From: Pseudodesulfovibrio aespoeensis Aspo-2
Lineage (GTDB): Bacteria; Desulfobacterota; Desulfovibrionia; Desulfovibrionales; Desulfovibrionaceae
Direction of reading: 5' to 3'
Length of the DNA: 64,000 nucleotides
Assembly: GCF_000176915.2 (NCBI RefSeq)
Contig: NC_014844.1
Location: 2,046,001 to 2,110,000 of the forward strand
Part shown: in pieces, positions 12,111 to 60,270 of the stretch
Position numbering within the stretch: the first letter of the stretch is position 1
How the letters are laid out: each line of letters starts with the position of its first letter
The notes under the pieces: model-generated
Databases searched by the model: none
What the model was told of the DNA's origin: nothing
The model's input: only the letters and a program-made list of their open reading frames with translations
Program-made: the position numbers and the translations under genes

Positions 12111-12617
12111 CTACTCGAAGCGGCGGGCCGTGATGATGGAGATGGGGTCCACGGGCACGTCGTCAAAGCCCTGGTAGGTCTTGGTCCGGGCCTTGCTGAT
12201 CTTGGTGGCCACGTTCATGCCGTCCACCACCTCGCCGAACACGCAGTAGCCGTAGTTCTCGTCCTCGGTGCCGGCGTGGTCCAGATCCGGGTTGTCGGCC
12301 ACGTTGATGAAGAACTGGGAGGTGCCGCTGTGCGGGTCCGCTGTCCGGGCCACGGCCACGGTGCCGGCCACGTTCTTCAGGCCGTTGGTGGCCTCGTTGG
12401 CGATTGCGTCGCGCGTGGGCTTGGCGGCCATGGAAAAGGTCAGCCCGCCCGCCTGGATCATGAATCCCTTGATGACGCGGTGGAACAGGGTGCCGTCGTA
12501 GAATTTGTCGTCCACATAGGCGAGAAAGTTCTCCACGGTCCTGGGTGCCTTGTCGGCAAACAGCTCTATCAGAATCTCCCCTTCCGGCGTTTCCAGAAGG
12601 ACCATCGGGTTTTCCAT
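12111..12617 (-). CDS. ppiB: Cyclophilin-type peptidyl-prolyl cis-trans isomerase
   Basis: The 168-residue single-domain cyclophilin has no signal peptide, so it is probably cytoplasmic (PpiB-like). Active-site landmarks are FHRVIKGFMIQAGG (catalytic Arg and the FMxQxG segment), GTVAVARTADPHSGTSQFFIN and YCVFGEVVDGMNVATKI. It speeds proline isomerisation during protein folding. It is the last gene of a leftward group and lies 23 bases downstream of the Xer recombinase gene. Confidence 0.92.
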   Translation of the reverse strand: MENPMVLLETPEGEILIELFADKAPRTVENFLAYVDDKFYDGTLFHRVIKGFMIQAGGLTFSMAAKPTRDAIANEATNGLKNVAGTVAVARTADPHSGTSQFFINVADNPDLDHAGTEDENYGYCVFGEVVDGMNVATKISKARTKTYQGFDDVPVDPISIITARRFE

Positions 12618-47367: not shown

Positions 47368-48195
47368 TTACTTCATGTCCACGGCCTTGACCCATATGAC
47401 AGCGTCCTGGGACAATTCCTTGCCGTCGTGCTGGGTGTCGGGGCCGATGCCCAGGGCGGCGAAGCCCCACCAACCGGCCTTGGGGATGCCGAAGGTAATG
47501 TAGCCGTTGTCGTCGGAGAAGATGGTCTGGGTGACAAAGGCGTCGTGCGGATAGGTGACCGAGGAGGCCTCGGGCAGGGAGTTGGTCTTGAGGTCGGGCA
47601 TGTGGCTCAGGTACTCCACCTCGACCTCGGCACCGGCCACGGGCTTGCCCTCGGAGAGCACCTGCGCCTTGAAGACGTTACCGGTCCACAGACTGTAGGG
47701 CTTGATCATGGGCACGATCTCGCACGGCAGGCCGACGGGGGCAGCCCAGTTGCCGGGCACGCCGCCCACGTTCATGATCACCTTGGTGATCTGCTGCATG
47801 TAGACGCCTTCCTCTTTCTCAAAGTAGTAGCCCGGCTTCATGACCAGGACGTAATCGCCCATGGAGCGGACTTCCTTCCTGGGGATCACGCCGCCAAAGG
47901 CCGGGGCCTTGGAATGGGGGTTGGTCCACTCGATCTGCTTGAGGTAGCCTTTGAGATCGATCTTCTTGGGCTCGGAATCGCCGCGCTGGAACATGGCGTA
48001 GAACTCCTCGACACCGCCCATGTCCATCATGTGCCCGGCCTCGGCAGGGTGGGTGAACACGATGCGGACATCCATGTCCTCACCCTGCTCAAGGGCGATC
48101 TCCGGGGTGTAGACCATCATGAAGTGGGCAAAGGCGGAGCTGACCACCGTAAGAACGCAGACGGCTGTCAGCAGCATGATGAACCGTTTTTTCAT
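47368..48195 (-). CDS. DUF4198 periplasmic protein, probably metal-uptake related
   Basis: The protein has 275 residues from ATG 48195 behind a strong AAGGAGAGG. The signal peptide (KKRFIMLLTAVCVLTVVSSAFAHF) is cleaved before the mature start HFMMVYTPE, typical of DUF4198. The body is a beta-sandwich with VFKAQVLSEGKPVAGAEVEVEYL (carboxypeptidase-regulatory-like repeat) and the GWWGFAALG ending. Family members sit beside metal-transport genes. A Fur-box-like site lies 25 bases upstream of the start, and the feo operon is next door, so an iron role is likely. Molecular function is unknown. Confidence 0.75.
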   Translation of the reverse strand: MKKRFIMLLTAVCVLTVVSSAFAHFMMVYTPEIALEQGEDMDVRIVFTHPAEAGHMMDMGGVEEFYAMFQRGDSEPKKIDLKGYLKQIEWTNPHSKAPAFGGVIPRKEVRSMGDYVLVMKPGYYFEKEEGVYMQQITKVIMNVGGVPGNWAAPVGLPCEIVPMIKPYSLWTGNVFKAQVLSEGKPVAGAEVEVEYLSHMPDLKTNSLPEASSVTYPHDAFVTQTIFSDDNGYITFGIPKAGWWGFAALGIGPDTQHDGKELSQDAVIWVKAVDMK

Positions 48196-48219
48196 GAAAC
48201 CTCTCCTTGTGATGAAATT

Positions 48220-48238
48220 GAGTTTTATTCTCATTATA
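48220..48238 (-). promoter_or_regulatory. Candidate Fur box upstream of the DUF4198 gene
   Basis: On the minus strand the site reads TATAATGAGAATAAAACTC, matching 13 of 19 positions of the classical GATAATGATAATCATTATC. One half is strong and the other weak. It lies 25 bases upstream of the DUF4198 start codon. Confidence 0.55.
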
Positions 48239-48288
48239 ATGCCAAAAAAAGGGGCGCAGACGGCAACGCCGCCTTGCGCCGCCATTCC

Positions 48289-48620: not shown

Positions 48621-51128
48621 TTACGAGCAATTGTCCTTGCACAGTTTCTCTCCGGCCACGGAAATGGGCCGGGATTCTTCCCCTATCGGTATCATGGCCA
48701 TGACCAGGGTGGTGGCCACGCACAATGCGTAAAACGCCCACATGGCCTGCATGCCGCTGAGTCCGAGCAGGCTGCCGCCGGTGAAGACCAGCGTGGCCAC
48801 AAACAGGCCGAGCAGCGACTGGTAGCCGATGGAGAACAGCATCCACTTGGTGGAGTTGGACTGGTGGCGCACCATGATCGAGGTGGGGATGCACGGCGGA
48901 TACAGGGCCATGAAGAGCATCAGGGCCAGGGCATGCAGCGGGGTGAATCCGACCTCCCCTTCCCGCATGCTCACCTCGACGGACTGGTTGGTGCCGTCGT
49001 GGCCGTAGATGGCCCCCAGAGTGGCCGCGCTGTTCTCCTTGGCCGCAAAAGCGGACAGGAGCGCGATGTTGATGCGCCAGTTGAACCCGGCATACTGGGT
49101 GACCGGCTCGATGGCCCGGCCCAGCACGCCGAGGAAGCTGCCCTCGAAGCGCTCCGCGCGGATTTCCCTGCGCAGTTGCTTGCGGGCCGAAGTAACGCTC
49201 TTGAGCGCCTTGTTAAGCGCCTTACCGTCCTCGCCCACGCGGCGGACCACGGCGAAATAGACCGGGTTGGCCTGCTCGAAGCGCGCGTTGATGACGTTGG
49301 ACGCCTCCTGGTCGGTCACGCCGACCTTGGCCTGTTTGAGGGCCTCGTCATAGAGGATGATGCCGGTGACATCCACCGGCGTGATCACGCCCTTGTACTG
49401 CGTCTTGTCCACCTGGGCCATGAACTTGGTGACAACAGCGTCCTGCTCGGCCTTGAAATGAGCCGTGCGGTCGCTGCTCAGGCCGGGGAAGTTGATGAGC
49501 ACGAAGACGACCACGGCCACGGCGGCCACCACGGTGACGATCTTCTTCATGAAAAGCCAGGTGCGCTCCACGGCGCGGCGCAGCACGCCGTCCAGGGTCG
49601 GCACATGGTAAGGCGGCATCTCCATGATGAACGGCGCGTTCTCCTTCTTGCGCAGCACCGTCATGGACAGCGCCTTGGCCACGGGCAGGGCCATGAACAT
49701 GGTCACCGTGGCGATGAAGAACATGGCCAGCCCGCCCGCCTCGGGAAAATAGGCGTCTATGAGGATCAGATAGAGCGGCACCTTGGCCAGGCAGTTCATC
49801 ATGGGCACGATCAGGATGGTGGCCAGCCGGGCGCGCTCGTCCGGGATCGCCTTGGTGGCCATGACTCCGGGAATGGCGCAGCCGCCCACATAGACGCCGC
49901 CGAGGATCATGGGCAGCGTGGACTGGCCGTGCAGCCCGAACCGCCGGAACAACCGGTCGAGAATGAACGCCATGCGCGGCATGTAGCCCGAATCCTCGAG
50001 CACGGCGATAAAGGCGAAGAGCAGGATGAAGATGGGCAGATAGTTGAGGATGGCCGTCATGGACTTGACCACCCACTCGCCCAGGGAGCGGACCAGCGGA
50101 TCCTCGGCAAATCCCGCTGTGGGCAGGATGTCCGAGACAAAGCTCTCGATGCTCCCCCACAGGGGCCAGACTTTGACCGCCAGCCAGCCGCCAAAGACGA
50201 TGGATATCTGGTACAGGGCGAGCAGGATCAGGATCAGGATCACGGGCCCGAAAAAGCGATGGCAGATGAACCGGTCCGCCCTGTCCGACAGCGAACTCGG
50301 CCTACCTGCCTCGACGGCCACCACTTCGCTGGCGATGCGCCCGGCGGCGGCGTGCCGGGCAAAGGCGATGTGCCGCTCTGCCTCGCGCCCCTCGCGCTCC
50401 TGAAACGCTGTCCTGGCAGAGGCCACCATGTCGAGCACGGTCTGGGGATCGGGGTGGATGCGGCGCAAGAGGACCTCGGCCTCGCTGTCCGCCTCCAGCA
50501 ATTTCACGGCCAGCCAGCGCACGGGGTACTGCGCGCTCAAGGTCGGCTCCCCGGCCAGCACGGTCTCAATGGCGTGAATGTGCGCTTCGAGGGAGCCGTA
50601 GTCGATGGAGAATGGAGCCTCGGCCTTTTCGGCATGGGCGTGCTCAACCGCGATGCGGATATCCTCCTTGCCCTGCCCCTTCTTGGCCACGGTCGGCACC
50701 ACCGGGATGGAGAGCAGCGCTTCGAGCCGGGCCAGATTCACGCTCTGGCCGCGGCGTTCGGCCACGTCCATCATGTTCAGGGCCAGGACCGTGGGCACCT
50801 CCATTTCAAGGAGCTGGATGGTCAGGTAGAGGTTGCGCTTGAGGTTCGAGGCGTCGGCCACGTCGATGACCACGCCGGGATTGTCGTTGAGCAGGAAATC
50901 GCGCGTCACCCGCTCCTCGAGGGAATAGGAGGTCAGGCTGTAGGTTCCGGGAAGGTCCACCAGCTCGACGCGCATATCGCCCAAAGTGAAGAATCCGGTC
51001 TTCTTCTCCACGGTCACGCCCGGATAGTTGGCCACATGCTGCCGCGCGCCGGTCAGCATGTTGAACACCGTTGACTTGCCGCAGTTGGGCTGACCCGCAA
51101 GTGCGACCAGAAGGCTGCCCGAACTCAT
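48621..51128 (-). CDS. feoB: Ferrous iron transporter FeoB
   Basis: The 835-residue protein has an N-terminal G domain with G1 GQPNCGKST (residues 12-20), the G2-region threonine (YPGVTVEKK), G3 DLPGTYSL and G4 NMMD. A helical GDI-like spacer follows, then the membrane domain with two Gate repeats (FILLFAFIAVLEDSGYMPRMAFILDRLFRRFGLHGQSTLPMI; INIALLSAFAAKENSAATLGAIYG). The C-terminus ends with a small Cys pair (LCKDNCS). It imports Fe(II) across the inner membrane. Its ATG overlaps the feoA stop by four bases. Confidence 0.95.
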   Translation of the reverse strand: MSSGSLLVALAGQPNCGKSTVFNMLTGARQHVANYPGVTVEKKTGFFTLGDMRVELVDLPGTYSLTSYSLEERVTRDFLLNDNPGVVIDVADASNLKRNLYLTIQLLEMEVPTVLALNMMDVAERRGQSVNLARLEALLSIPVVPTVAKKGQGKEDIRIAVEHAHAEKAEAPFSIDYGSLEAHIHAIETVLAGEPTLSAQYPVRWLAVKLLEADSEAEVLLRRIHPDPQTVLDMVASARTAFQEREGREAERHIAFARHAAAGRIASEVVAVEAGRPSSLSDRADRFICHRFFGPVILILILLALYQISIVFGGWLAVKVWPLWGSIESFVSDILPTAGFAEDPLVRSLGEWVVKSMTAILNYLPIFILLFAFIAVLEDSGYMPRMAFILDRLFRRFGLHGQSTLPMILGGVYVGGCAIPGVMATKAIPDERARLATILIVPMMNCLAKVPLYLILIDAYFPEAGGLAMFFIATVTMFMALPVAKALSMTVLRKKENAPFIMEMPPYHVPTLDGVLRRAVERTWLFMKKIVTVVAAVAVVVFVLINFPGLSSDRTAHFKAEQDAVVTKFMAQVDKTQYKGVITPVDVTGIILYDEALKQAKVGVTDQEASNVINARFEQANPVYFAVVRRVGEDGKALNKALKSVTSARKQLRREIRAERFEGSFLGVLGRAIEPVTQYAGFNWRINIALLSAFAAKENSAATLGAIYGHDGTNQSVEVSMREGEVGFTPLHALALMLFMALYPPCIPTSIMVRHQSNSTKWMLFSIGYQSLLGLFVATLVFTGGSLLGLSGMQAMWAFYALCVATTLVMAMIPIGEESRPISVAGEKLCKDNCS

Positions 51129-51417: not shown

Positions 51418-51642
51418 TCAGGCCACCAGCACCTTCTCGGCCACGCCGCGCTCGACGATGATGCGACCCTCGCCCACGGAGACAATCATGGGACCACTGC
51501 CGTTGTTGAGCACGTCCACCTCGATGCCCGGAATAATCCCCATGGATTCGAGCCTGGTCCTTGCCTTGAACCCGGCGTCCACGGCCACCACGAAGGTGGT
51601 CTCACCGCTCGCCACACCGGCCAGCGTCCTGCGCAACAACAT
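51418..51642 (-). CDS. feoA: Second FeoA-like protein, first gene of the feo operon
   Basis: The 74-residue FeoA domain protein (MLLRRTLAGVASGETTFVVAVDAGFKARTRLESMGIIPGIEVDVLNNGSG) is distinct from the feoB-coupled copy. ATG 51642 is preceded by AGGGGGT. A Fur box lies 37 bases upstream of the start. Tandem feoA genes are a known variation in anaerobes; the two copies may contact different FeoB sites. Confidence 0.88.
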   Translation of the reverse strand: MLLRRTLAGVASGETTFVVAVDAGFKARTRLESMGIIPGIEVDVLNNGSGPMIVSVGEGRIIVERGVAEKVLVA

Positions 51643-51678
51643 CGTTACCCCCTGCACGTTCAGTTCTCGGTTGCAATT

Positions 51679-51810: not shown

Positions 51811-52335
51811 ATGGAAACACACGACCAACACAACCGACAGAGACATGAAGTGAACGAGGCTCTCAAGACATTCAGACATTACCTGGCAGCCAACAGTCTC
51901 AAGCTGACCCAGCAGAGATTGCTGATCTTCAAGGTGTTTCAAAGCCAGGACTCGATGCTGACCTGTGAAGGACTGCTTGAAAGGGTCACGGAGATGGACG
52001 CGGGCATCAGCCGGTCCACCGTGTACCGAACCATCAAGCACCTGCACGACGCGGGCGTTGCCCGCTGCATCCGCTTGAGCGACGGCACCACCAACTACGA
52101 ACCCATGGTCGACCACCACAGCAGGATGATCTGCGAGCGGTGCGGCAGGCAGATACCGCTGGTCAACCCCTACCTCGACTGCCTGCAGCGGGAGACCGCC
52201 CGGCAGCAGGGATTCACCCTGTTCCGCTTCGAGACAGTGCTCCATGGCCTGTGCCATGCCTGCACCCACGCAGACAACGACCACCCGGACTGCGCATTGT
52301 GCGCCTCCGGCAACGATTCACGGGAGAAGCCATGA
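51811..52335 (+). CDS. fur: Fur-family metalloregulator
   Basis: The 174-residue protein has a winged-helix DNA-binding half (LKLTQQRLLIFKVFQSQDSMLTCEGLLERV...GISRSTVYRTIKHLHDAGVARCI) and a dimerisation half with metal ligands: YEPMVDHHSRMICERCG (His pair and Cys-x2-Cys) and LHGLCHACTHADNDHPDC (extra Cys/His ligands). The Cys-rich tail is longer than in E. coli Fur. The gene is divergent from the Fur-boxed feo operon, so Fur is likelier than Zur or PerR. No strong ribosome binding site precedes ATG 51811; a palindrome ATGAC-GT-GTCAT sits directly in front of it. Confidence 0.83.
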   Translation: METHDQHNRQRHEVNEALKTFRHYLAANSLKLTQQRLLIFKVFQSQDSMLTCEGLLERVTEMDAGISRSTVYRTIKHLHDAGVARCIRLSDGTTNYEPMVDHHSRMICERCGRQIPLVNPYLDCLQRETARQQGFTLFRFETVLHGLCHACTHADNDHPDCALCASGNDSREKP

Positions 52336-52499
52336 CCATTCGATGCTCCATCGCCAGCAAGGAAGACCCGCGCGCCTTTCTCAGACGCGGCATCAACTCC
52401 ATGTTTGCCGCCGGCACGAACCAGGAGGAGACCGCCCCGCCGGTGGACACCGGGTCTGATCGGAAAAAACTGCCTGCGCCCACACCCACGGCCAAATGA
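52332..52499 (+). CDS. 55-residue protein translationally coupled to fur
   Basis: The start ATG 52332 overlaps the fur stop as ATGA and is preceded by GGAGAAGCC, so ribosomes terminating on fur can restart here. The peptide (MTIRCSIASKEDPRAFLRRGINSMFAAGTNQ...) has a basic N-terminal half and a Pro/Thr-rich tail, no membrane segment and no known domain. Coupling argues for a real product; its role is unknown. Confidence 0.5.
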   Translation: MTIRCSIASKEDPRAFLRRGINSMFAAGTNQEETAPPVDTGSDRKKLPAPTPTAK

Positions 52500-52512
52500 C
52501 CCCGTCTGGCGC

Positions 52513-52543
52513 AAAAAGAAAGCCGGGCCTTTTCAGGCCCGGC
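52513..52543 (-). terminator. Intrinsic terminator of the second Fur-family gene
   Basis: On the minus strand, the stem GCCGGGCC / GGCCCGGC with loop TGAAAA is followed by TTTCTTTTT. It lies about 60 bases beyond the stop of the leftward Fur-family gene and would end the whole sia-moxR-fur transcript if that is one unit. Confidence 0.8.
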
Positions 52544-52603
52544 GTTGGAGCGATCCGCCGCGTGTGTGTGGGGGAGGGGAGACGGCGGGTCGCCCGAACA
52601 AGG

Positions 52604-53044
52604 TCAGGACCGGGCCGTATCAGCGCAGCCTGGGCACAGTCCGAAAAGAAACATGCGGTGACGGGTCAGAGTGAAACCGTATTCCACGGCCAGGGCCTCC
52701 TGCCTGCGCTCAATGGCCGCGTCAACGATCTCGACCTTCCTGCCGCACACGAGGCAGACAAGATGGTCATGGTGTTCATGCCCGTAGCGGTGCTCGTAGA
52801 GGGTCACCCCCTCGCCCAGGTCAAAGGCGTCGGCCAGACCTGAATCCACCAGCAGCTTGAGGGTCCGGTAGACCGTGGCCTGCCCGATGTCAGACATCCG
52901 CCTGCCTACCCTTTCGTAAAGCTGCTCTGCCGAAAAATGCCCCTCGCTCTCCAGAAAGGTCTCCACGATGGCCTTGCGCTGAGGGGTCAAGCTCAATGAA
53001 TTGCTTCTCATGAAATCCAGAAACACCTGCTGGGCCGACTTCAT
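52604..53044 (-). CDS. Fur-family metalloregulator (Fur/PerR type), second copy
   Basis: The protein has 146 residues from ATG 53044 behind AAGGAGAAG. Its winged helix is SLSLTPQRKAIVETFLESEGHFSAEQLYERV...IGQATVYRTLKLLVDSGLA. The metal-binding half has EHRYGHEHHDHLVCLVCGRKVEIVD and a C-terminal GLCPGC, giving two Cys-x2-Cys zinc pairs and the His-rich sensing site. It differs markedly from the other Fur-family protein encoded convergently, so the two probably sense different signals (iron, peroxide or zinc); I cannot assign which. It lies 49 bases after the preceding gene of the sia-moxR operon and may be co-transcribed. Confidence 0.82.
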   Translation of the reverse strand: MKSAQQVFLDFMRSNSLSLTPQRKAIVETFLESEGHFSAEQLYERVGRRMSDIGQATVYRTLKLLVDSGLADAFDLGEGVTLYEHRYGHEHHDHLVCLVCGRKVEIVDAAIERRQEALAVEYGFTLTRHRMFLFGLCPGCADTARS

Positions 53045-53093
53045 CTCTTCTCCTTGTCCCTTGGTATCCGCATCCGGAGTGTCCGGCGTGTCC

Positions 53094-53555
53094 TCAAAAC
53101 CCGACGGCAGCGAGAAACCGCGCCGAAACAACGCCCGAGGCAATGTGTTTTCTGGTGGTGTCGGTCAGTTCGAGCTCGCTGATGATATCGAGCGGCGCGC
53201 TGTCGTAGGCGGCTGTCAGGACCAGCTCGAAATCGCGGCGGAGCCGGACAAAAGCGTCGGCCACGTCGGAGAATCCGCCGCCCGGCCCGCGCCACGGCAG
53301 GGTCAGGGTGTCCTCGAATGATTTGCGCACATGGCTCGGCGTCATCAGCCGGTGCCAGCCAAGGGGTGCTCCGCCCCGCTCATCCTGGCCGGGATGGCAA
53401 TACGACCTCCAGGCGGACGGCGGTGTGACAATGGCCTTTTCCAGCACCACCTGGGGCACGGCCAGCTCGATCTCGAAAGGTTCAAGCTCGATCGAGTACT
53501 TGAGCACGGGCCGGTGATAGCCCCGCCGCTTGGTGATTTCCCACTGAATCTTCAT
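53094..53555 (-). CDS. Unknown cytoplasmic protein of the moxR-VWA operon
   Basis: The protein has 153 residues from ATG 53555 behind AGGGAGGAG, overlapping the VWA gene stop as ATGA. No signal peptide or membrane segment is present. The sequence mixes beta-like stretches (VLKYSIELEPFEIELAVPQVVLEKAIV) with a helical C-terminal part (FSDVADAFVRLRRDFELVLTAAYDSAPLDIISELELT). I do not recognise a family. The coupling suggests that it works with the MoxR/VWA pair, perhaps as adaptor or substrate. Confidence 0.65.
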   Translation of the reverse strand: MKIQWEITKRRGYHRPVLKYSIELEPFEIELAVPQVVLEKAIVTPPSAWRSYCHPGQDERGGAPLGWHRLMTPSHVRKSFEDTLTLPWRGPGGGFSDVADAFVRLRRDFELVLTAAYDSAPLDIISELELTDTTRKHIASGVVSARFLAAVGF

Positions 53556-54898
53556 GCACTCTCCTCCCTTGCCGCCACTTCGATGATCTCGCCGAAGGGC
53601 GGGATGTTTCCGCCGCCGCCGACGCGCGCCCAGAGCACCGGATAGTCCGGCTCGCGCTCCGGGAAACGGGGGCATTCCATGTCCGTGAGGTAGACGAGGC
53701 AGGCCGGGTCCACGCCCTCGCCCTCCACCCAGTCAAAGACCGGGCGATAGTCCGTGCCGCCGCCTCCCACCGGGTCGATCTCAAGGGGCAGGTCGGCCCG
53801 ACTGAAGGTTCGTGCCGAGGTCAACCGCACGTCGCAGCAGACCACATGGACCGTGGTGTCATAGGTTTCGAGCAAGCCTGAAAGCTCTGCCGCGAACTGG
53901 TCCATCTCCCGGTCGCCCACGCTGCCCGAGGTGTCCAGGGCCAGGACCACCTCCGGCAGTTTGCGGTGCGACAGGGAGGGCAGCACAATATTCATGTGGA
54001 GAAAGCGCCTGTTGGGCGGGGTCCAGCTGTAATCGTCCCTGGCCCGCTCGCTGATGAACCGCGACAACAGCTCGCGCCAGTCGAGCCTGGGGGCGAGCAG
54101 GTCGCGCACCAGCCGCGCCAGACCACCGGGCAGGTCGCCCGTCTCTCTGGCCTGCCGCGCGGCATCGGCCAGGGCTATCTCCCATTCCTGGTCCGTCTCG
54201 TCGCCGGACTGGCCGCCCCCGGTTTCATGGCCCGATGCGTCGCGCACCTCGCCGCTGCCGCCCGGATCGCCGGGCTGATCCAGACGGGTTTCTGCGGCTT
54301 CATCACCGGTCTCCCCGGGCTCGCCGATCTCGCTGTCTTCGGCAATGGCCGCCGCGCTGTCGCTGGCCTGCGCAGAATCGCCCTCTCCGCCTTCATCGCC
54401 CGCCCTGCCCGGCCTGCCCATCGCGTCGCGGTTCTCCTCCTCGCCCATTTCACGCCCTTCGCCCGCCTCGTCGGACGGCATGCCGTCGCCGCCCCGGCTG
54501 GCGGCCAGCTCGGCATACACGGCGTCGGCGCTCATGCCCTGGTAAGCGGGATTGTCCAGGTGTCCGGGCGGCAAGGTGAAACCCGCGTCGAGCAATATCC
54601 AGTTGATGGCGTGGTCGCAGGCAGCGTTCCACAGCCCGGCATCACGCCCGTTGCGGCGCACATGGTGCTGGCAGGCGGGATGCATGACCGTATGGGCGAG
54701 CATGCCAAGCACCTGGGGCTCGCTCAGCCCGGCCACATAGACCGGGTTGTAGGCAAGGGTGCGGCCATCGGTCCAGGCGGTGCGGCAGGCCAAGTCCTCG
54801 CGGGGGACCATGCGCATGCACAGGGAGCCGAAAAAAGGGTGGTCCAGCAGCAGCGAGGTCCGCGCCCGGATCACTTTCTTGTACGCCGTGCCGCTCAT
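53552..54898 (-). CDS. DUF2201-type protein: inactive metallopeptidase-like domain plus VWA domain
   Basis: The 448-residue protein has an N-terminal DUF2201-like domain (about 1-140) with LAHTVMHPACQHHVRR and LWNAACDHAINWILLDAG. The zinc-protease motif HExxH is HTVMH here, without the catalytic Glu. The middle (about 145-240) is an acidic, Gly/Glu/Asp-rich low-complexity linker. The C-terminal VWA domain has the MIDAS motif DTSGSVG, a later Thr in GGGTDYRPVFDW and LTDMECP. VWA proteins of this kind act with MoxR AAA+ ATPases in metal insertion or complex remodelling. The ATG directly abuts the moxR stop. Confidence 0.82.
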   Translation of the reverse strand: MSGTAYKKVIRARTSLLLDHPFFGSLCMRMVPREDLACRTAWTDGRTLAYNPVYVAGLSEPQVLGMLAHTVMHPACQHHVRRNGRDAGLWNAACDHAINWILLDAGFTLPPGHLDNPAYQGMSADAVYAELAASRGGDGMPSDEAGEGREMGEEENRDAMGRPGRAGDEGGEGDSAQASDSAAAIAEDSEIGEPGETGDEAAETRLDQPGDPGGSGEVRDASGHETGGGQSGDETDQEWEIALADAARQARETGDLPGGLARLVRDLLAPRLDWRELLSRFISERARDDYSWTPPNRRFLHMNIVLPSLSHRKLPEVVLALDTSGSVGDREMDQFAAELSGLLETYDTTVHVVCCDVRLTSARTFSRADLPLEIDPVGGGGTDYRPVFDWVEGEGVDPACLVYLTDMECPRFPEREPDYPVLWARVGGGGNIPPFGEIIEVAAREESA

Positions 54899-55882
54899 TT
54901 AGAATAACACGTCGGAGTTGGCAGTGGCCCAGTGCGAAAAGGCCGGGCACTCGACCACGCAAGGGGCGGTCCTGACCGAATCACGCACCAGGAGCACGGC
55001 GAACTCGGCGGGCAGCCGCGAGGCATAGGCGATGATGCTCTCGGCAGTGTCTGCCCCAGCCTTTCTGGCCAGCGCGCCGCACAGGGCGTAGAGTGTGGCC
55101 GGTTCTTCCGGGATTTCGGCCAGGTCCGGGCGTTCGATGACCGCGTCCGGGTCGGGCAGCTGCCGATAGATGCGGGAGAATCCCACGAACTCGGCAGCCG
55201 CGCCAGGGCCAACGGCGCCGCGCAGCAGGTCCGCCTCCACCTCCGGGTCCGGTCCGGCTGCCAGGACGCGGGCGGCGAACTCCCAGGACCGAGGCGAGGG
55301 GAACGCCTTGTCGTCGCGCCTGGGATCAAAGCTGTGCAGGAGGTTTGGCCGATAGCGTACAAAGGCGCGAACCTCCTCGACCAGCCCCTGTCCGGCGGCC
55401 CAGTCGAGCCACTGGTCCACATCCACGTCAAAGTCGAGGTGGACAAAGCGGTTGGACAGGGCCGAGGGCATCCTGTGGGTCACGGCCCGGTCGCCCTCGC
55501 GGTTGCCCGCTGCGATCACGGTCCACCCTTCGGGCAGCTCGTATTCGCCCACGCGCCGGTCCAGGATGAACTGGTAGCAGGCGGCCTGAACCAGGGGCGG
55601 CGCGGCGTTGAGCTCGTCGAGAAAGAGCACGCCCCGGCCCGACACGGGCAGGAAGGCGGGCGGGCACCAGCGGGCAGTACCATCCGGCGAGACCGTGGGG
55701 ATGCCGCGCAGATCCACGGGGTCGAGCAGCACGGCCCGCAGGTCGGTCAGCTCGCACTCAAGCTCGGCGGCGACCTGGGCCACCACCTGGCTCTTGCCCA
55801 CGCCGGGCGGCCCCCAGATGAACACGGGCTGACGGATGGGGATGAGCGTCCGCAGGGACGCCTTTATCTGACTTGGGGTCAT
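54899..55882 (-). CDS. MoxR-family AAA+ ATPase
   Basis: The protein has 327 residues from ATG 55882. Walker A is GPPGVGKSQ (about residues 24-32), Walker B is VLFLDELNAAPPLVQ, sensor 1 is VIAAGNREGD, and the arginine finger region is MPSALSNRFVHLDF. MoxR ATPases are chaperones that pair with VWA proteins, and the partner gene follows with no gap. Unlike classical MoxR, it is preceded by sia signalling genes (31 bases from siaC), which suggests that the chaperone is connected to c-di-GMP/partner-switch output. Confidence 0.88.
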   Translation of the reverse strand: MTPSQIKASLRTLIPIRQPVFIWGPPGVGKSQVVAQVAAELECELTDLRAVLLDPVDLRGIPTVSPDGTARWCPPAFLPVSGRGVLFLDELNAAPPLVQAACYQFILDRRVGEYELPEGWTVIAAGNREGDRAVTHRMPSALSNRFVHLDFDVDVDQWLDWAAGQGLVEEVRAFVRYRPNLLHSFDPRRDDKAFPSPRSWEFAARVLAAGPDPEVEADLLRGAVGPGAAAEFVGFSRIYRQLPDPDAVIERPDLAEIPEEPATLYALCGALARKAGADTAESIIAYASRLPAEFAVLLVRDSVRTAPCVVECPAFSHWATANSDVLF

Positions 55883-55913
55883 TGATTGCCTCTCATTTTG
55901 CAGGGATGGCCGG

Positions 55914-56300
55914 TCAATCCACGTACTCGACGAGATTGAACCGGAGGTTGCGCACGTCTTCCATGAACTCTTCGCCGCACTCCATGGCGGTCTCGTTCTC
56001 CTCGTGGTAGCGCCAGTTGACCACGATGTTGCGGCCCTTGGCCGCCTCGGAATCGAGCATGTCAAAGAGGTCCATGAAGGTCTTGGACGACGAGCTGTTG
56101 AAATAGAGAATCTCCATGTTCAGCTCCACCCGATCGTCCCGAACCCGATCGAAAAAACTCTCAAGCCAGTCAAACACCGGTCCGTAGAAGCCGGAGCAGT
56201 TCTCCGGATAGGATTCGCCCCTGATCTCCAGGATGCGGGTTACGGGGTCGAAATCTATGTGCGGGGACGACTTGGTCGCCTGTACGCTGAAACGTGTCAT
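55914..56300 (-). CDS. siaC: SiaC-like phosphoprotein (DUF1987)
   Basis: The 128-residue protein matches the SiaC family: SPHIDFDPVTRILEIRGESYPENCSGFYGPVFDWLESFF, then MEILYFNSSSSKTFMDLFDML. In Pseudomonas SiaC the phosphorylated Thr lies in a similar N-T-S-S loop; here the equivalent position is Ser69 (N-S-S-S-S). Unphosphorylated SiaC binds and activates the diguanylate cyclase SiaD, while SiaB phosphorylates and SiaA dephosphorylates it. All four partners are encoded in this operon. It starts ten bases after siaB. Confidence 0.88.
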   Translation of the reverse strand: MTRFSVQATKSSPHIDFDPVTRILEIRGESYPENCSGFYGPVFDWLESFFDRVRDDRVELNMEILYFNSSSSKTFMDLFDMLDSEAAKGRNIVVNWRYHEENETAMECGEEFMEDVRNLRFNLVEYVD

Positions 56301-56310
56301 GGCAGAACTC

Positions 56311-56865
56311 CTACTGGGCGACTACTTTCATGGAAAAGAACGAGGTCTCGCAATCCAGGGGTACGAAGTCGTAGTCCATGGGGCGGGACGATTTGCGGGC
56401 CATCTCGATAAAGCCGAGGCCCGCACCCTTGGACTCCTCGCCGGGCCGACTCCTGCGACGCTCGCGGTAATAGGCCTTGAGATCGTTGCGGCCCATGGCC
56501 CTGAGGGTTTCCAGCTGGCTGGTCAGCCTGTCCACGTCCTCGGCGCGCACCTTGTTGCCGCAGGCCACGAAAAAGCTGCCGTCACTCTCACGGCCCACCA
56601 CCACCTGGCCGTGGGCCATCTCGCCCAGGCTCGCCGTGGCATGGTTGTGCCGCTCCGACGAATAGCGAACGATATTCTGCATCTGCTCGACCAGGATGGA
56701 GAAGACCCGCTGCACGCTGTCCATGCCCGCGTCCTCGGCGCGCATCTTCTCGCGCATCAGTTCGGCCAGCCCCTCGACCACGGCCTGGGAGACCGGGCCA
56801 TTGAAGTAGAGGATCGTGCCTTTTCCTCTCATTTCTTCGTAATATTTGTACAAATTTGATGCCAT
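56311..56865 (-). CDS. siaB: SiaB-like protein kinase
   Basis: The protein has 184 residues from ATG 56865 behind GGAGGGG; an earlier in-frame ATG at 56877 is less well placed. It has a GHKL/HATPase-like fold: the N-box region SILVEQMQNIVRYSSERH, the central VVVGRESDGSFFVACGNKV, and the glycine-rich GAGLGFIEMARKS. SiaB-family kinases phosphorylate SiaC and so keep the cyclase SiaD off. It follows siaA by 13 bases. Confidence 0.86.
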   Translation of the reverse strand: MASNLYKYYEEMRGKGTILYFNGPVSQAVVEGLAELMREKMRAEDAGMDSVQRVFSILVEQMQNIVRYSSERHNHATASLGEMAHGQVVVGRESDGSFFVACGNKVRAEDVDRLTSQLETLRAMGRNDLKAYYRERRRSRPGEESKGAGLGFIEMARKSSRPMDYDFVPLDCETSFFSMKVVAQ

Positions 56866-56878
56866 GAGCCCCTCCATG

Positions 56879-58054
56879 CTAGACTTCTAAACCGAGCACA
56901 GTCATGTCGTCGCGGCGGCTCTCGCCGCCCTGGTATTCGGACAGGCACGCCATGAGCGCATCGCCCTGCCCGGTGATGGGAGCGGTCCGGTGCTCCTCGA
57001 TGAACCGCATCAGCCGACTCCGGCCAAAGGGCAGCCGCCTGGGCCCGCCCACCTGATCGACGATGCCGTCGGTGGCCATGTAGAACCTGGCTCCGGGCGC
57101 CAGGGCCACCTCGACATCGGTAAAAACGAAATCGCGCGGCGACCGGACATAGCCGAGCCCGCAACGGTCCCCCCTGATGCGCCGGGCCTTGCCCCCCTCG
57201 ACCGCATACAGGGGCGAATTGGCCCCGGCAAAGACCAGCCTGCCGGAACCGGGCGAGACATGGCACAGAGCGCAGTCCATGCCGTCATCCGAGCGGGTGC
57301 CCTTCTCGTTCTGGCCCAGGGCGTCCTTGATCAGCCGGTTGGTCCGGGCGAGCATGCCCGACGGCGAGGCGTCGCCCTCCCGCAGAGCTTTTTCGAGCAG
57401 CGACTGCACGATCAGGGTCATGAATGCGCCCGGCACGCCGTGGCCGGTGCAGTCGATCACCCCGATGAAATATCCATCGCCCCACGGCTTGAACCAGTAG
57501 GAGTCGCCGCCCACCACGTCACGCTGGCGCCAAAGCAGAAAATGGGCGGGCACAACCCCGGCCAGCGCGCGCTCGTCGGGCAGGAAGGCGGCCTGGATGT
57601 GCGAGGCGTAGTCGATGCTCTCAAGGATCTGGTTGCGCGCCTCGGCCAGGGACTGCAAGGCCGACGAGAGCCTGCGCTGGCGGCTGGCGATGGCATAGCC
57701 CATCCAGTGCATGTTGCGCTTGAGAGACACGAAATCATGCCCCTCATCATCGTCCGGGGGCGGCTCGGTCACCCCGTACTCGCCGCGCTTGAGGAGCTGG
57801 CACTGGGCATTGAGCTCGAGGATGTTGCGCAGGGCGATGACATGGCTGAGCCACTTGGCCAGGGGCACCACCAGGATGATGCCGACCACCAGGAAGCCGA
57901 CCATGAAGTTGGTGACCGTCTCACGGGCGCCAGAATGGTAAATCACGAGGGTGGTCAGGGGAAAAACCACCATGGCCGCCAGCAGGAGCGCGGTCATCTT
58001 GCACTCCACGCTCAAAGCCGACACGGCATGCAGCAGACCGGTCACGACACGCAC
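56879..58054 (-). CDS. siaA: SiaA-like membrane PP2C phosphatase
   Basis: The protein has 391 residues from GTG 58054 (GGGGAGG upstream), four bases after the siaD stop. Two transmembrane helices (about 20-40 and 48-66) and a HAMP-like linker precede a SpoIIE/PP2C domain. Its metal ligands are DVVGGDSYWF, VIDCTGHGVPGAFM, ATDGIVDQVGG and the terminal RRDDMTVLGLEV. It should dephosphorylate SiaC and so turn on the cyclase. The periplasmic loop between the two helices is very short, unlike Pseudomonas SiaA, which has a larger sensing part. The input signal is therefore unclear. Confidence 0.87.
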   Translation of the reverse strand: MRVVTGLLHAVSALSVECKMTALLLAAMVVFPLTTLVIYHSGARETVTNFMVGFLVVGIILVVPLAKWLSHVIALRNILELNAQCQLLKRGEYGVTEPPPDDDEGHDFVSLKRNMHWMGYAIASRQRRLSSALQSLAEARNQILESIDYASHIQAAFLPDERALAGVVPAHFLLWRQRDVVGGDSYWFKPWGDGYFIGVIDCTGHGVPGAFMTLIVQSLLEKALREGDASPSGMLARTNRLIKDALGQNEKGTRSDDGMDCALCHVSPGSGRLVFAGANSPLYAVEGGKARRIRGDRCGLGYVRSPRDFVFTDVEVALAPGARFYMATDGIVDQVGGPRRLPFGRSRLMRFIEEHRTAPITGQGDALMACLSEYQGGESRRDDMTVLGLEV

Positions 58055-58057
58055 GGC

Positions 58058-59200
58058 TCAGGCCTCCCCGTCGTCGCAGGCAACGCCCCTGACCGAGCGG
58101 GGGCAGACGGATCGGCGGTATGTCTCCACCCGGTCACGGCCATTCTTCTTGGCCGCATACAGGGCGATGTCCGAATACTTGAGCAGCGAATCAAGGCTGT
58201 CCTTGGACTCCTCAAAGGACGCCAGCCCCATGGACACGGTCATGGAGACCGGTCCGCGCGGGGAATCCACGACCGCCCGGCGGATAGTCCTGGCAATGCG
58301 CACGGCAACGGCGCAGGCGTCTTCTGCCGAGGTGTCGGGCAGCATGACCGCGAACTCCTCGCCGCCGAGCCTGGCGGCCACATCCACCTCGCGCACGGAC
58401 TCCCCGATCACGCGGGCCAGCTCCATGAGCGCCACATCGCCCACATCATGGCCATGGGTGTCGTTGATGGCCTTGAAATGATCCACATCAAGCATGATGA
58501 GCGACAGCTCGCCACCGCTCCGGCGCGCGCGGTTCAATTCGCGCCCGGCAAGCTCCATGAAATATCCCCTGTTCCACATCCCGGTCATGCTGTCGGTCCT
58601 GGCAAGGCGGCACATCTCCTCGATCATCCGCTTGCGCTCGGTGACATCCACCAGGACGCCCACCACGCCCGCCCGAACACCCTTGGCCTCGTCGCCACCC
58701 ACCATGCTGGCGCTGATCTCGACCCACAGGCTCTCATCACCCGGACCGCAGACGCGCACCTCGTAGCGGCGGGCATCGCCAGCGGCGAGCAACGCCTCGT
58801 ACAGATGAAAATCCTCATGGTCGCAAAAGATGCGATGCAGCTCGCCCACGGTCCGGATAAAGGATTCCGGGCCCTGGCAGCCAAACATGGCAGCCATGGC
58901 CGGGTTCACCTCCACGAACCTTCCGCCCTCGTCGCACCGGTAGATGCCCTCGGTCACATTCTCGAAGATGCTGCGGAACTTGTGCTCGCTCAGGGCGAGA
59001 TTGCGATTGAGATCATTGAGGGTCTGCTGCATCCGATCGCCCATGGTGACCAGTCTGCGGCTCTGGCGGACAAGCTTCTCATACTCCCGGACCAGCGAGG
59101 CGAAGACGGGCGAGGAATGCCCATTGTCAGCAGTTTCCCGGACAGCCTCCCTGGCCATCTCAAGCACTCGCTCCTCTCGCGTGAAAACTTCTTTATGCAT
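58058..59200 (-). CDS. siaD: SiaD-like diguanylate cyclase with inserted PAS domain
   Basis: The protein has 380 residues from ATG 59200 (AGGGGTGATC upstream). The N-terminal coiled stalk (about 25-75, LVREYEKLVRQSRRLVTMGDRMQQTLNDLNRNL) resembles the SiaC-binding region of SiaD. A PAS domain follows (about 78-195, EHKFRSIFENVTEGIYRCDEGGRFVEVNPAMAAMFG), then GGDEF with the active signature RLGGEEFAVMLP. An RxxD inhibitory site (REVD) lies exactly five residues before GGEEF. All catalytic features are intact, so it should make c-di-GMP. The PAS makes it longer than classical SiaD. It is the first gene of the operon, with a Fur box just upstream. Confidence 0.86.
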   Translation of the reverse strand: MHKEVFTREERVLEMAREAVRETADNGHSSPVFASLVREYEKLVRQSRRLVTMGDRMQQTLNDLNRNLALSEHKFRSIFENVTEGIYRCDEGGRFVEVNPAMAAMFGCQGPESFIRTVGELHRIFCDHEDFHLYEALLAAGDARRYEVRVCGPGDESLWVEISASMVGGDEAKGVRAGVVGVLVDVTERKRMIEEMCRLARTDSMTGMWNRGYFMELAGRELNRARRSGGELSLIMLDVDHFKAINDTHGHDVGDVALMELARVIGESVREVDVAARLGGEEFAVMLPDTSAEDACAVAVRIARTIRRAVVDSPRGPVSMTVSMGLASFEESKDSLDSLLKYSDIALYAAKKNGRDRVETYRRSVCPRSVRGVACDDGEA

Positions 59201-59235
59201 GATCACCCCTGGCGGCATCGCCGCTTGGCAATCGT

Positions 59236-59254
59236 GATATTGAAATTCATTTTC
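59236..59254. promoter_or_regulatory. Candidate Fur box upstream of siaD
   Basis: GATATTGAAATTCATTTTC matches 15 of 19 positions of GATAATGATAATCATTATC, better than the feo site in the same window. It lies 35 bases upstream of the siaD start codon, within 59201-59463, which also separates siaD from the divergent solute-binding protein gene. Repression of the sia-moxR operon by iron-loaded Fur is the likely meaning. Confidence 0.65.
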
Positions 59255-59463
59255 ATTGTCAACGCATAATCAGGGATGGGGGTTCTGCGGCTCTTGCGGA
59301 ATCCAGGCGGAATCCAGGCAGCAGCGACCGGAGGAGCCAAACGCGAGCCAGACAGCGGCTGCCAAAATGGAATACGAAGTCAGCGGTCGGTCAACCCGAT
59401 ATATTCATTGGGAAACAACGATGGATCGCCAGATACCGCTTCACTTGCAGACACAAAAAACGT

Positions 59464-60270
59464 ATGATGATAGTTATGAATCGCAGAAGCCAAAAACCGG
59501 GCCGCAAGGGTCGCATGGTCGCGCTCCTCTGGTGTGCGAGTCTCGTCCTGCTCCTGGCCCCGCTGCTCCGCCCTGTCCCGGCGCACGGTGCGGACATCGT
59601 CGAGGTTCTGTCCACGGGCCAGTCTTGGGATTTGTTCACCAACCCCGACGGCACGGGACTCTACCATGAGATTCTGAACGCGGTCTTCGCCCTCCACGCC
59701 ATTCCGGTGCGGCACGAATACGCCACTTCCGACCGGGCCGAAGAGCTTGTCCGCCTGGGGCAGGCCGACATGATGATCTGTGACGATATGGTCAGCCCGC
59801 CTCTGGTCATGGCCCGCCACCCCATGTACGAGAATGCCTACCATGTGTTTTTCAGCCGCGGTCGAATCCCGGACTGGCAAGGCCCGCAGAGCCTGCTCGA
59901 CCGACTGGTGCTGAGTCAGCCCGGATACTACGTCCAGGAGAACTTTCCAGTGCCAGTGCGGATCAAGTATGTCGCCAACGGCGCCCAGGGGCTGGGCATG
60001 GTCCTCCTTGGCCGGGCCGACGCCTATGTAGACGACATGGCCTTCATCAGAAAGTCCATCGCCGAAAACACCATTCCCTTCGACATGCTCGACTACGAAA
60101 TCAGACAAGTGGGAGTCCGCTCGTACCACCCGCTCTTCAACACCTCCCCGCGCGGCCAGGCGATCATGGAGCTGTATGACGAGGGCATGAGGACCCTGCA
60201 CCAGAACGGCGGCCTGAAGGCCATCTACGAGAAATGGGGGCACCCCTACCCCGACTTCGACAAGTATTGA
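59464..60270 (+). CDS. Periplasmic solute-binding protein (SBP_bac_3-like), orphan
   Basis: The 268-residue protein begins with a positively charged N-terminus and a signal peptide ending VPAHGAD. The mature part resembles family 3 solute-binding proteins: LYHEILNAVFALHAIPVRHEY, VRLGQADMMICDD and MVLLGRADAYVDDMAFIRK. No transporter genes adjoin it, so it may sense a ligand rather than transport it. ATG 59464 is the first of several starts; 59476 is an alternative and no clear ribosome binding site helps the choice. It is divergent from siaD and may share the Fur-box region. Confidence 0.72.
   Translation: MMIVMNRRSQKPGRKGRMVALLWCASLVLLLAPLLRPVPAHGADIVEVLSTGQSWDLFTNPDGTGLYHEILNAVFALHAIPVRHEYATSDRAEELVRLGQADMMICDDMVSPPLVMARHPMYENAYHVFFSRGRIPDWQGPQSLLDRLVLSQPGYYVQENFPVPVRIKYVANGAQGLGMVLLGRADAYVDDMAFIRKSIAENTIPFDMLDYEIRQVGVRSYHPLFNTSPRGQAIMELYDEGMRTLHQNGGLKAIYEKWGHPYPDFDKY

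Follow-up and report, generated by a model that had tools for sequence, protein, structure and literature searches.

The window analysed here, a 64 kb stretch of Pseudodesulfovibrio aespoeensis Aspo-2 corresponding to bases 2046001-2110000 of one 3,629,109-base contig, carries a row of minus-strand genes in which a Sia module is followed by a MoxR/VWA module. The order, read from the open reading frames (ORFs) of the window, is siaD-siaA-siaB-siaC-moxR-VWA-unknown. The initial annotation had described seven tightly packed leftward genes, and these are present as claimed, with gaps of at most 31 bases or overlaps. An eighth gene, encoding a Fur-family regulator, follows them. The initial annotation had overlooked a predicted Fur box and a Feo/Fur context. 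The features of the row are the following:

59240..59256, minus strand: predicted Fur box, 16/17 match to WTGAAAATNATTTTCAW
58058..59200, minus strand: siaD, with N-terminal stalk, PAS and GGDEF domains (Pfam and NCBIfam)
56879..58054, minus strand: siaA, with two membrane segments (by eye), a linker and a PP2C/SpoIIE phosphatase domain
56311..56865, minus strand: siaB, SiaB-family kinase (Pfam DUF6272, NCBIfam)
55914..56300, minus strand: siaC, SiaC-family protein with S69 at the T68 position
54899..55882, minus strand: moxR, AAA+ ATPase (Pfam AAA_5/AAA_3) with intact Walker A and B motifs
53552..54898, minus strand: VWA protein, Pfam DUF2201_N and DUF2201 (VWA-like), with metal ion-dependent adhesion site (MIDAS) residues
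53094..53555, minus strand: 153-residue third component of the MoxR/VWA module (alignment and predicted structure)
52604..53044, minus strand: Fur-family regulator, eighth and last gene of the row
52522..52543, minus strand: strong terminator-like site with a 9-pair stem and a T-rich tail

The gaps between consecutive genes are 3 bases (siaD-siaA), 1 (siaA-siaB), 10 (siaB-siaC), 31 (siaC-moxR) and 0 (moxR-VWA); the VWA and 153-residue genes overlap by 4 bases, and the Fur-family gene begins 49 bases past the end of the latter. The start of siaD lies most likely at 59200, where homologues start and an AGGGG resembling a ribosome-binding site is found, with an alternative ATG at 59218. The siaB start was refined to 56865 (alternative upstream ATG at 56877) and that of moxR to 55882 by reading of the sequence, and siaA starts with GTG. 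A simple scan of positions 52400-59700 revealed no terminator-like site on the minus strand at the siaC-moxR junction. The four remaining minus-strand sites sit within the coding sequences of siaA, siaB, moxR and the Fur-family gene, and both strands together carry nine such sites against a mean of 4.0 in shuffled sequences.

Conservation of the row was studied in 36 Pseudodesulfovibrio genomes, of which 18 carry SiaC, 19 DUF2201_N, 16 both and 15 neither. The full seven-gene order is kept in 16/16 genus members having both parts, with protein identities of 52-94% to the window row. It is uninterrupted in 15 of them, a chemoreceptor gene lying between siaC and moxR in the remaining one (G206; G and L numbers denote genomes and loci, respectively, and g13 another genus). 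The siaC-moxR gap is of at most 31 bases in 15/16 loci, with 4-base overlaps of the two genes in L066, L068, L070 and L072; in L071 the contig stops inside siaD. The upstream window genes sbp-sdaA-glnQ are kept in only 2 of the 14 other loci reaching there (L061 and L063). The presence of SiaC and DUF2201_N is linked in the genus (16 genomes with both, 2 and 3 with one, 15 with neither; Fisher p 3e-5, uncorrected for kinship). The two genomes with SiaC and no DUF2201_N, G247 and G249, are less complete (93 and 87%); the SiaC of G249 is a divergent copy, and such a second copy is also present in G248. In the G247 locus (L076), siaA and siaD each fall into two separate matches, probably because of frameshifts or draft assembly errors. 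The moxR-VWA-153-residue triad occurs without sia genes in G129, G163 and G196. The siaC-moxR adjacency, found in 16 of the 36 genomes, is thus not limited to this strain, and with the short gap and the lack of an intervening terminator-like site in the window the row is well supported as one conserved transcription unit, as had been proposed; the accompanying proposal that SiaC or cyclic di-GMP (c-di-GMP) controls the chaperone is retained as a rival reading only.

The pairing was found in no other genus searched. In a 247-genome sample of the taxonomic order, SiaC was detected in 54 genomes and DUF2201 above cut-off in 87; outside the genus the figures are 40 and 70, with 19 genomes having both. 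Three genomes with below-cut-off matches (G083 for DUF2201, G108 and G183 for SiaC) were excluded from the FeoB, co-occurrence and distance counts. The modules are close together in 0/19 outside-genus genomes having both, a result limited by contig breaks; 16 have them on different contigs, and in the other three they lie on one contig, 97-789 kb apart. Among 326 genomes of the phylum, SiaC was found in 6, DUF2201 in 29 (24 above cut-off) and both in 2, and the modules were adjacent only in the window's own genome, lying far apart in the further one. In a scan of named genomes, sia genes were seen at 3 of the best 80 of 223 MoxR loci, all from Pseudodesulfovibrio. Sia flanks were fetched for 19 of the 40 outside-genus SiaC genomes, giving 20 loci including the second G248 copy.

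A SiaB+SiaC tree groups the 15 uninterrupted loci into a single supported clade (99/98), with G206 outside it. Two g13 genomes nest within the genus sia clade (forks 100/99 and 98/99; long branch) with no triad alongside, and it is probable from these sequences that the sia module moved alone to g13 (L104 and L106). In both loci, the siaD reading meets an in-frame stop close to the extrapolated start, which was probably misplaced. In a MoxR+third-protein tree, the sia-less G129 groups with G109 (96/92), which suggests that G129 probably lost its sia genes. Most likely, separate Fur-linked modules came together on one or two occasions in the genus, and losses followed.

The Desulfovibrio Fur box consensus, 17 bases long, is WTGAAAATNATTTTCAW in a 2004 paper (PMC545781). 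The predicted box just before siaD (16/17) scores highest in the entire 64 kb window and lies 39 bases from the likely siaD start, or 21 from the upstream ATG; by sequence match, the row has a 17-base box ahead of it, as operons of the Desulfovibrio Fur regulon do. Within the 400 bases before siaD, a score of at least 14 was obtained in 13 of the 16 testable genus loci and of at least 15 in 10. Because shuffled sequences hit 14 in several loci and 15-16 in few, only scores of at least 15/17 within 400 bases upstream of the leading sia gene or of a lone moxR were counted as sites. Such sites precede 23/61 loci vs 2/167 control intergenic regions of the same loci (Fisher p 4e-13, with non-independent rows), and one of the two control sites, one predicted gene before siaA in L116, may belong to the sia operon. 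They occur in 10/18 genus sia loci, 6/20 other sia loci and 7/23 sia-less triads, and their density is 23 in 24.8 kb of pre-operon windows vs 15 in 1,038 kb elsewhere. The internal moxR of the 16 two-module genus loci, which is expected to lack a box, has no site scoring above 13 in front of it; before moxR of outside-genus triads, 12/20 reached at least 14. At 4 of the 15 genus loci tested, a separate 16/17 box precedes the Fur-family gene of the row; the window is not one of these four.

According to the same work (PMC545781), Fur boxes were predicted in D. desulfuricans G20 before a three-gene MoxR-like/CoxE-like operon, reported there as unconfirmed in other species, and GGDEF and HD-domain genes were listed in the same Fur regulon. 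The G20 operon is very probably the present triad. The G20 Fur site, used as a tag for this operon, was found in 0/288 genomes of the family.

Beyond the Fur-family gene of the row, the window carries a second, convergent Fur gene followed by feoA and feoB:

51811..52335, plus strand: second Fur-family regulator, convergent with the row
about 51418-51645, before feoB: probable feoA, named from its position
48621..51128, minus strand: feoB, with one FeoB_C match falling within

A FeoB is found no more than 15 kb from SiaC in 10/18 genus genomes and in 11/40 outside-genus genomes, the latter spanning 8 of 15 genera with four of the 11 cases from one genus. For the outside-genus SiaC loci, 11 of 48 are near FeoB against 0.72 expected (Poisson p 3e-10). 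In L108, L113 and L116, from three genera, feoB is placed between siaA and siaB (siaA-feoB-siaB-siaC-siaD). The window gene past feoB (47368-48285) resembles, by eye, DUF4198 genes near other sia loci.

The triad appears to be a conserved three-gene module of the taxonomic order. Flanks were fetched for 20 of the 70 outside-genus genomes with DUF2201, and in 20/20 loci moxR, VWA and 153-residue genes are found in the same order and strand, with siaB or siaC in none of them; in L087 the last two genes are about 1 kb apart. In the named-genome scan, both partners were seen at 62 of the best 80 MoxR loci, the other 18 corresponding partly to contig ends and partly to distant organisms for which the queries may be too weak. 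An apparent fusion of the VWA and 153-residue proteins in L068 was rejected as a hit-extension artefact, as a stop codon separates them. The ATPase motifs of MoxR are invariant in the 23 of 39 sequences aligned (Walker A: G24, P26, G27, G29, K30, S31; Walker B: F87-L88-D89-E90), and the MIDAS residues D322, S324, S326, T382 and D406 are so in the 35 of 39 aligned VWA proteins, whose VWA folds match. Histidines 69, 73, 78 and 79 are also invariant in these 35 sequences. The HExxH motif of DUF2201_N reads HTVMH in the window, lacking the catalytic glutamate of a metallopeptidase; HTVMH or HTIMH is found in the genus and in three g13 loci, HVVTH in two f2 loci, and the glutamate is kept as HEVLH or HEILH in 13 other aligned loci. 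Since the histidines are invariant and the glutamate is replaced, the DUF2201_N domain may bind metal without peptidase activity.

Searches of Pfam, NCBIfam and PDB gave no recognised relative of the 153-residue protein. Its predicted structure, a small beta domain followed by C-terminal helices, has a confident core (mean predicted local distance difference test score 86), and W5, K9, G12, R15, P16, Y20, P73 and H75 are among the residues invariant in the 37 of 39 sequences aligned. No fold relative was called, the best values being E 0.16 in Foldseek and Z 3.9 in a second look. The initial annotation had seen in this protein a candidate adaptor or client. As it belongs to the MoxR/VWA module in the 20/20 sia-less loci, accompanying MoxR and VWA with or without Sia, a role as Sia adaptor is unlikely, and the protein is better seen as a third subunit of MoxR/VWA or as their client.

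The window Sia proteins were assigned with family models. SiaC matches PF09345 (150 bits) and PDB entry 6kko (E 5.6e-21), and reaches 112 bits with the NCBIfam equivalog model, under its cut-off of 150. SiaB is above cut-off for the SiaB-family kinase model NF038262 (199 vs 85 bits) and below it for the equivalog NF038264 (126 vs 225). The values of SiaD (NF038266, 186 bits, cut-off 290) and SiaA (NF038263, 255 bits, cut-off 700) are also under the equivalog cut-offs; in SiaA, the match covers model positions 309-655 of 658, so that the PP2C part is present and a full-length protein with sensor plus PP2C is not recovered. In Pseudomonas, published work describes an action of both SiaA and SiaB on SiaC (PMC7647112), the activation of SiaD by SiaC binding to its stalk and the blocking of this binding by SiaB phosphorylation of T68 (PMC8457831). 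In the window protein, Ser69 aligns with this Thr68 (20 of 38 SiaC sequences aligned). The SiaD stalk has, by eye, a single SiaC-binding-like motif, LVTMGDRMQ, whose VTMGDRMQ was set against S82-D83-R84-Y85-Q86 of the published sequence. The SiaD GGDEF domain carries an I-site-like RxxD. As judged from their sequences, the window Sia proteins appear to keep the parts needed for the switch; the exceptions are the Ser that replaces Thr68, the single stalk motif of SiaD and the unmatched N-terminal part of the SiaA model.

A separate meeting of c-di-GMP enzymes and triad was found in G001, a genome of another family (L094:4618-10041). Its row encodes a 108-residue protein, a SiaA-like-GGDEF fusion, HD_5, a DksA-like protein, MoxR, VWA and the third protein; some 180 bases ahead of the first of these genes lies a Fur box scoring 15/17. 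At its N-terminus, the fusion resembles window SiaA residues 14-142 (31% identity across 130 residues; E 8e-20 when only these two sequences were compared). It follows that c-di-GMP enzymes and triad met at least twice, each time behind a Fur box. Triads are present in 2/18 genomes of the G001 family, the sensor-cyclase arrangement in one of them; the second of the two, G022, has upstream of its triad genes that resemble, by eye, a TonB/ExbB/ExbD uptake cluster. Genes related to the HD_5 gene of L094 directly precede siaD in the g13 loci L104 and L106, and stand towards the outer end of the genus locus, past feoB, in L064, L065, L069, L070, L078 and L080.

Gene order and its conservation, Fur boxes, Feo neighbourhood and intact motifs are all features of the sequences themselves. 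On this basis, we consider it moderately probable that the eight genes of the row form an iron-responsive operon under Fur control, holding two machines joined by a need under iron shortage. Each module being able to carry a Fur box, the two were joined into one operon that is probably iron-responsive. With plentiful iron, Fur-Fe2+ would occupy the box before siaD and keep the row silent; with falling iron, the row would be expressed. SiaB would then phosphorylate SiaC, probably on Ser69, and SiaA would strip the phosphate, and unphosphorylated SiaC would bind the SiaD stalk and switch on c-di-GMP synthesis. The triad, consisting of an AAA+ ring, a VWA partner with a metal-binding-like domain and a third subunit, would probably act on an iron-dependent protein complex, by remodelling it or by helping to insert or remove metal. 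The modules would have been joined as both serve iron shortage, mutual contact not being required. Fur repression, the individual biochemical steps and the nature of the client are what we infer from the sequences.

Several observations weigh against this proposal. No sigma-70-like promoter was found by the simple scan on the minus strand of 52400-59700, including the region before siaD. A box of at least 15/17 is lacking in 8/18 genus sia loci, 14/20 other sia loci and 16/23 triads, so that either Fur control is not universal or the scoring window misses some boxes. Among the genus loci concerned, L071 lacks upstream sequence, L061, L075 and L076 score 14, L064 scores 13, L065 10 and L069 12, and the L077 locus is divergent; in L065 and L069 a box is found some 500 bases upstream, beyond the scored window. 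In L112, a box at 12191 was missed because the siaD start was extrapolated too far. FeoB is more than 15 kb from SiaC or unseen in 29/40 outside-genus and 8/18 genus genomes, some of them owing to contig breaks, and the tests overstate independence because the rows are related. The neighbours of outside-genus triads share no iron theme, with generic families only among the 25 listed (the neighbour scans took in 77/130 and 80/127 predicted ORFs). Finally, the metal role of the triad, which we hold to be probable, is drawn by analogy from known MoxR/VWA systems.

A direct coupling of the two machines, in which SiaD-made c-di-GMP, or SiaC in one of its phosphorylation states, would bind a triad protein and gate the chaperone on an iron-linked client, is in our view rather unlikely. 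It would account for the block being kept in all 16 genus members with both parts, for the 4-base siaC/moxR overlaps of four loci, and for the sensor-GGDEF, HD_5 and DksA-like genes directly before the triad in G001, with the 15/17 box ahead. On the other hand, the G001 arrangement is seen in one genome of 18 in its family, the modules are close in none of the 19 sampled outside-genus genomes with both, and each occurs alone: the triad without sia in G129, G163 and G196, SiaC without triad in G247 and G249, and the sia genes of the two g13 genomes, nested in the genus clade, with the triad absent. A c-di-GMP-gated AAA+ machine for iron starvation, in which the Sia switch or the signal of the G001 fusion and HD protein would directly activate the triad for metal recovery or insertion, likewise seems unlikely. 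Altogether, low-iron co-expression is the best-supported link between the modules, and the row is better explained by an iron regulon than by a possible SiaC-MoxR contact.

The joining could also be an accident of operon accretion in the ancestor of most of the genus, kept by descent, with the Fur box belonging to one module only. That the 15 uninterrupted loci form one sia clade, bar the two nested g13 sequences, suggests that they may stem from a single event; the pairing is confined to one genus, and the chemoreceptor gene between siaC and moxR in G206 is what stepwise assembly would give. Nevertheless, Fur boxes precede each module separately in other genera, SiaC and DUF2201_N presence is linked in the genus (again uncorrected for kinship), and the row order is kept while the upstream genes turn over, making accretion quite improbable. 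A chemoreceptor (methyl-accepting chemotaxis protein) gene stands beside siaC in 6/38 fetched sia loci (L075, L076, L111, L114, L115 and L117), as would be expected if the sia genes regulated chemotaxis or surface behaviour through the neighbouring receptor of an older layout, and the triad had replaced that receptor in most of the genus. This possibility appears very remote, as most of the 38 loci have no such neighbour, the replacement would be deduced from few genomes, and the Fur boxes would be left unexplained.

The Sia switch in Pseudomonas is known for carbon and surfactant responses, and the Fur box and Feo proximity in several genera give the Sia module a second physiological setting. 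A link of Sia with MoxR/VWA or with iron/Fur was not found among the titles and abstract openings listed, the subscription literature being mostly uncovered. The Fur-box MoxR/VWA operon left unexplained in 2004 now appears as a conserved module of the taxonomic order, with the third protein present at all 20 fetched outside-genus triad loci.

As regards known systems, NorQ/NorD, CbbQ/CbbO, CoxD/CoxE and RavA/ViaA also pair a MoxR AAA+ ATPase with a VWA partner, and several of them act on metalloenzymes. Their VWA architectures differ from that of the window, and none is known to have a DUF2201_N domain or a 153-residue third protein; in the window VWA protein, Pfam shows no domain beyond DUF2201_N and DUF2201. 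The G20 operon shares with the triad three genes, MoxR-like and CoxE(VWA)-like, with Fur boxes ahead, and differs from the window in being described alone, without sia. VMAP and related MoxR-vWA ternary conflict systems share MoxR, vWA and a third protein, but their order is VMAP-MoxR-vWA (PMC7159879), whereas that of the window and of 20/20 outside-genus loci is MoxR-VWA-third. With SiaABCD of Pseudomonas aeruginosa, the window shares a PP2C phosphatase, a SiaB-family kinase, a SiaC-family protein and a GGDEF cyclase in one operon; the stalk of the cyclase has, by eye, a putative SiaC-binding-like motif. In contrast to that system, Ser replaces Thr68 in the window SiaC, the SiaA model finds no match for its N-terminal part, SiaD has a PAS domain and, by eye, one stalk motif instead of two, and siaD is the first gene of a row with a Fur box ahead and the MoxR/VWA genes behind.

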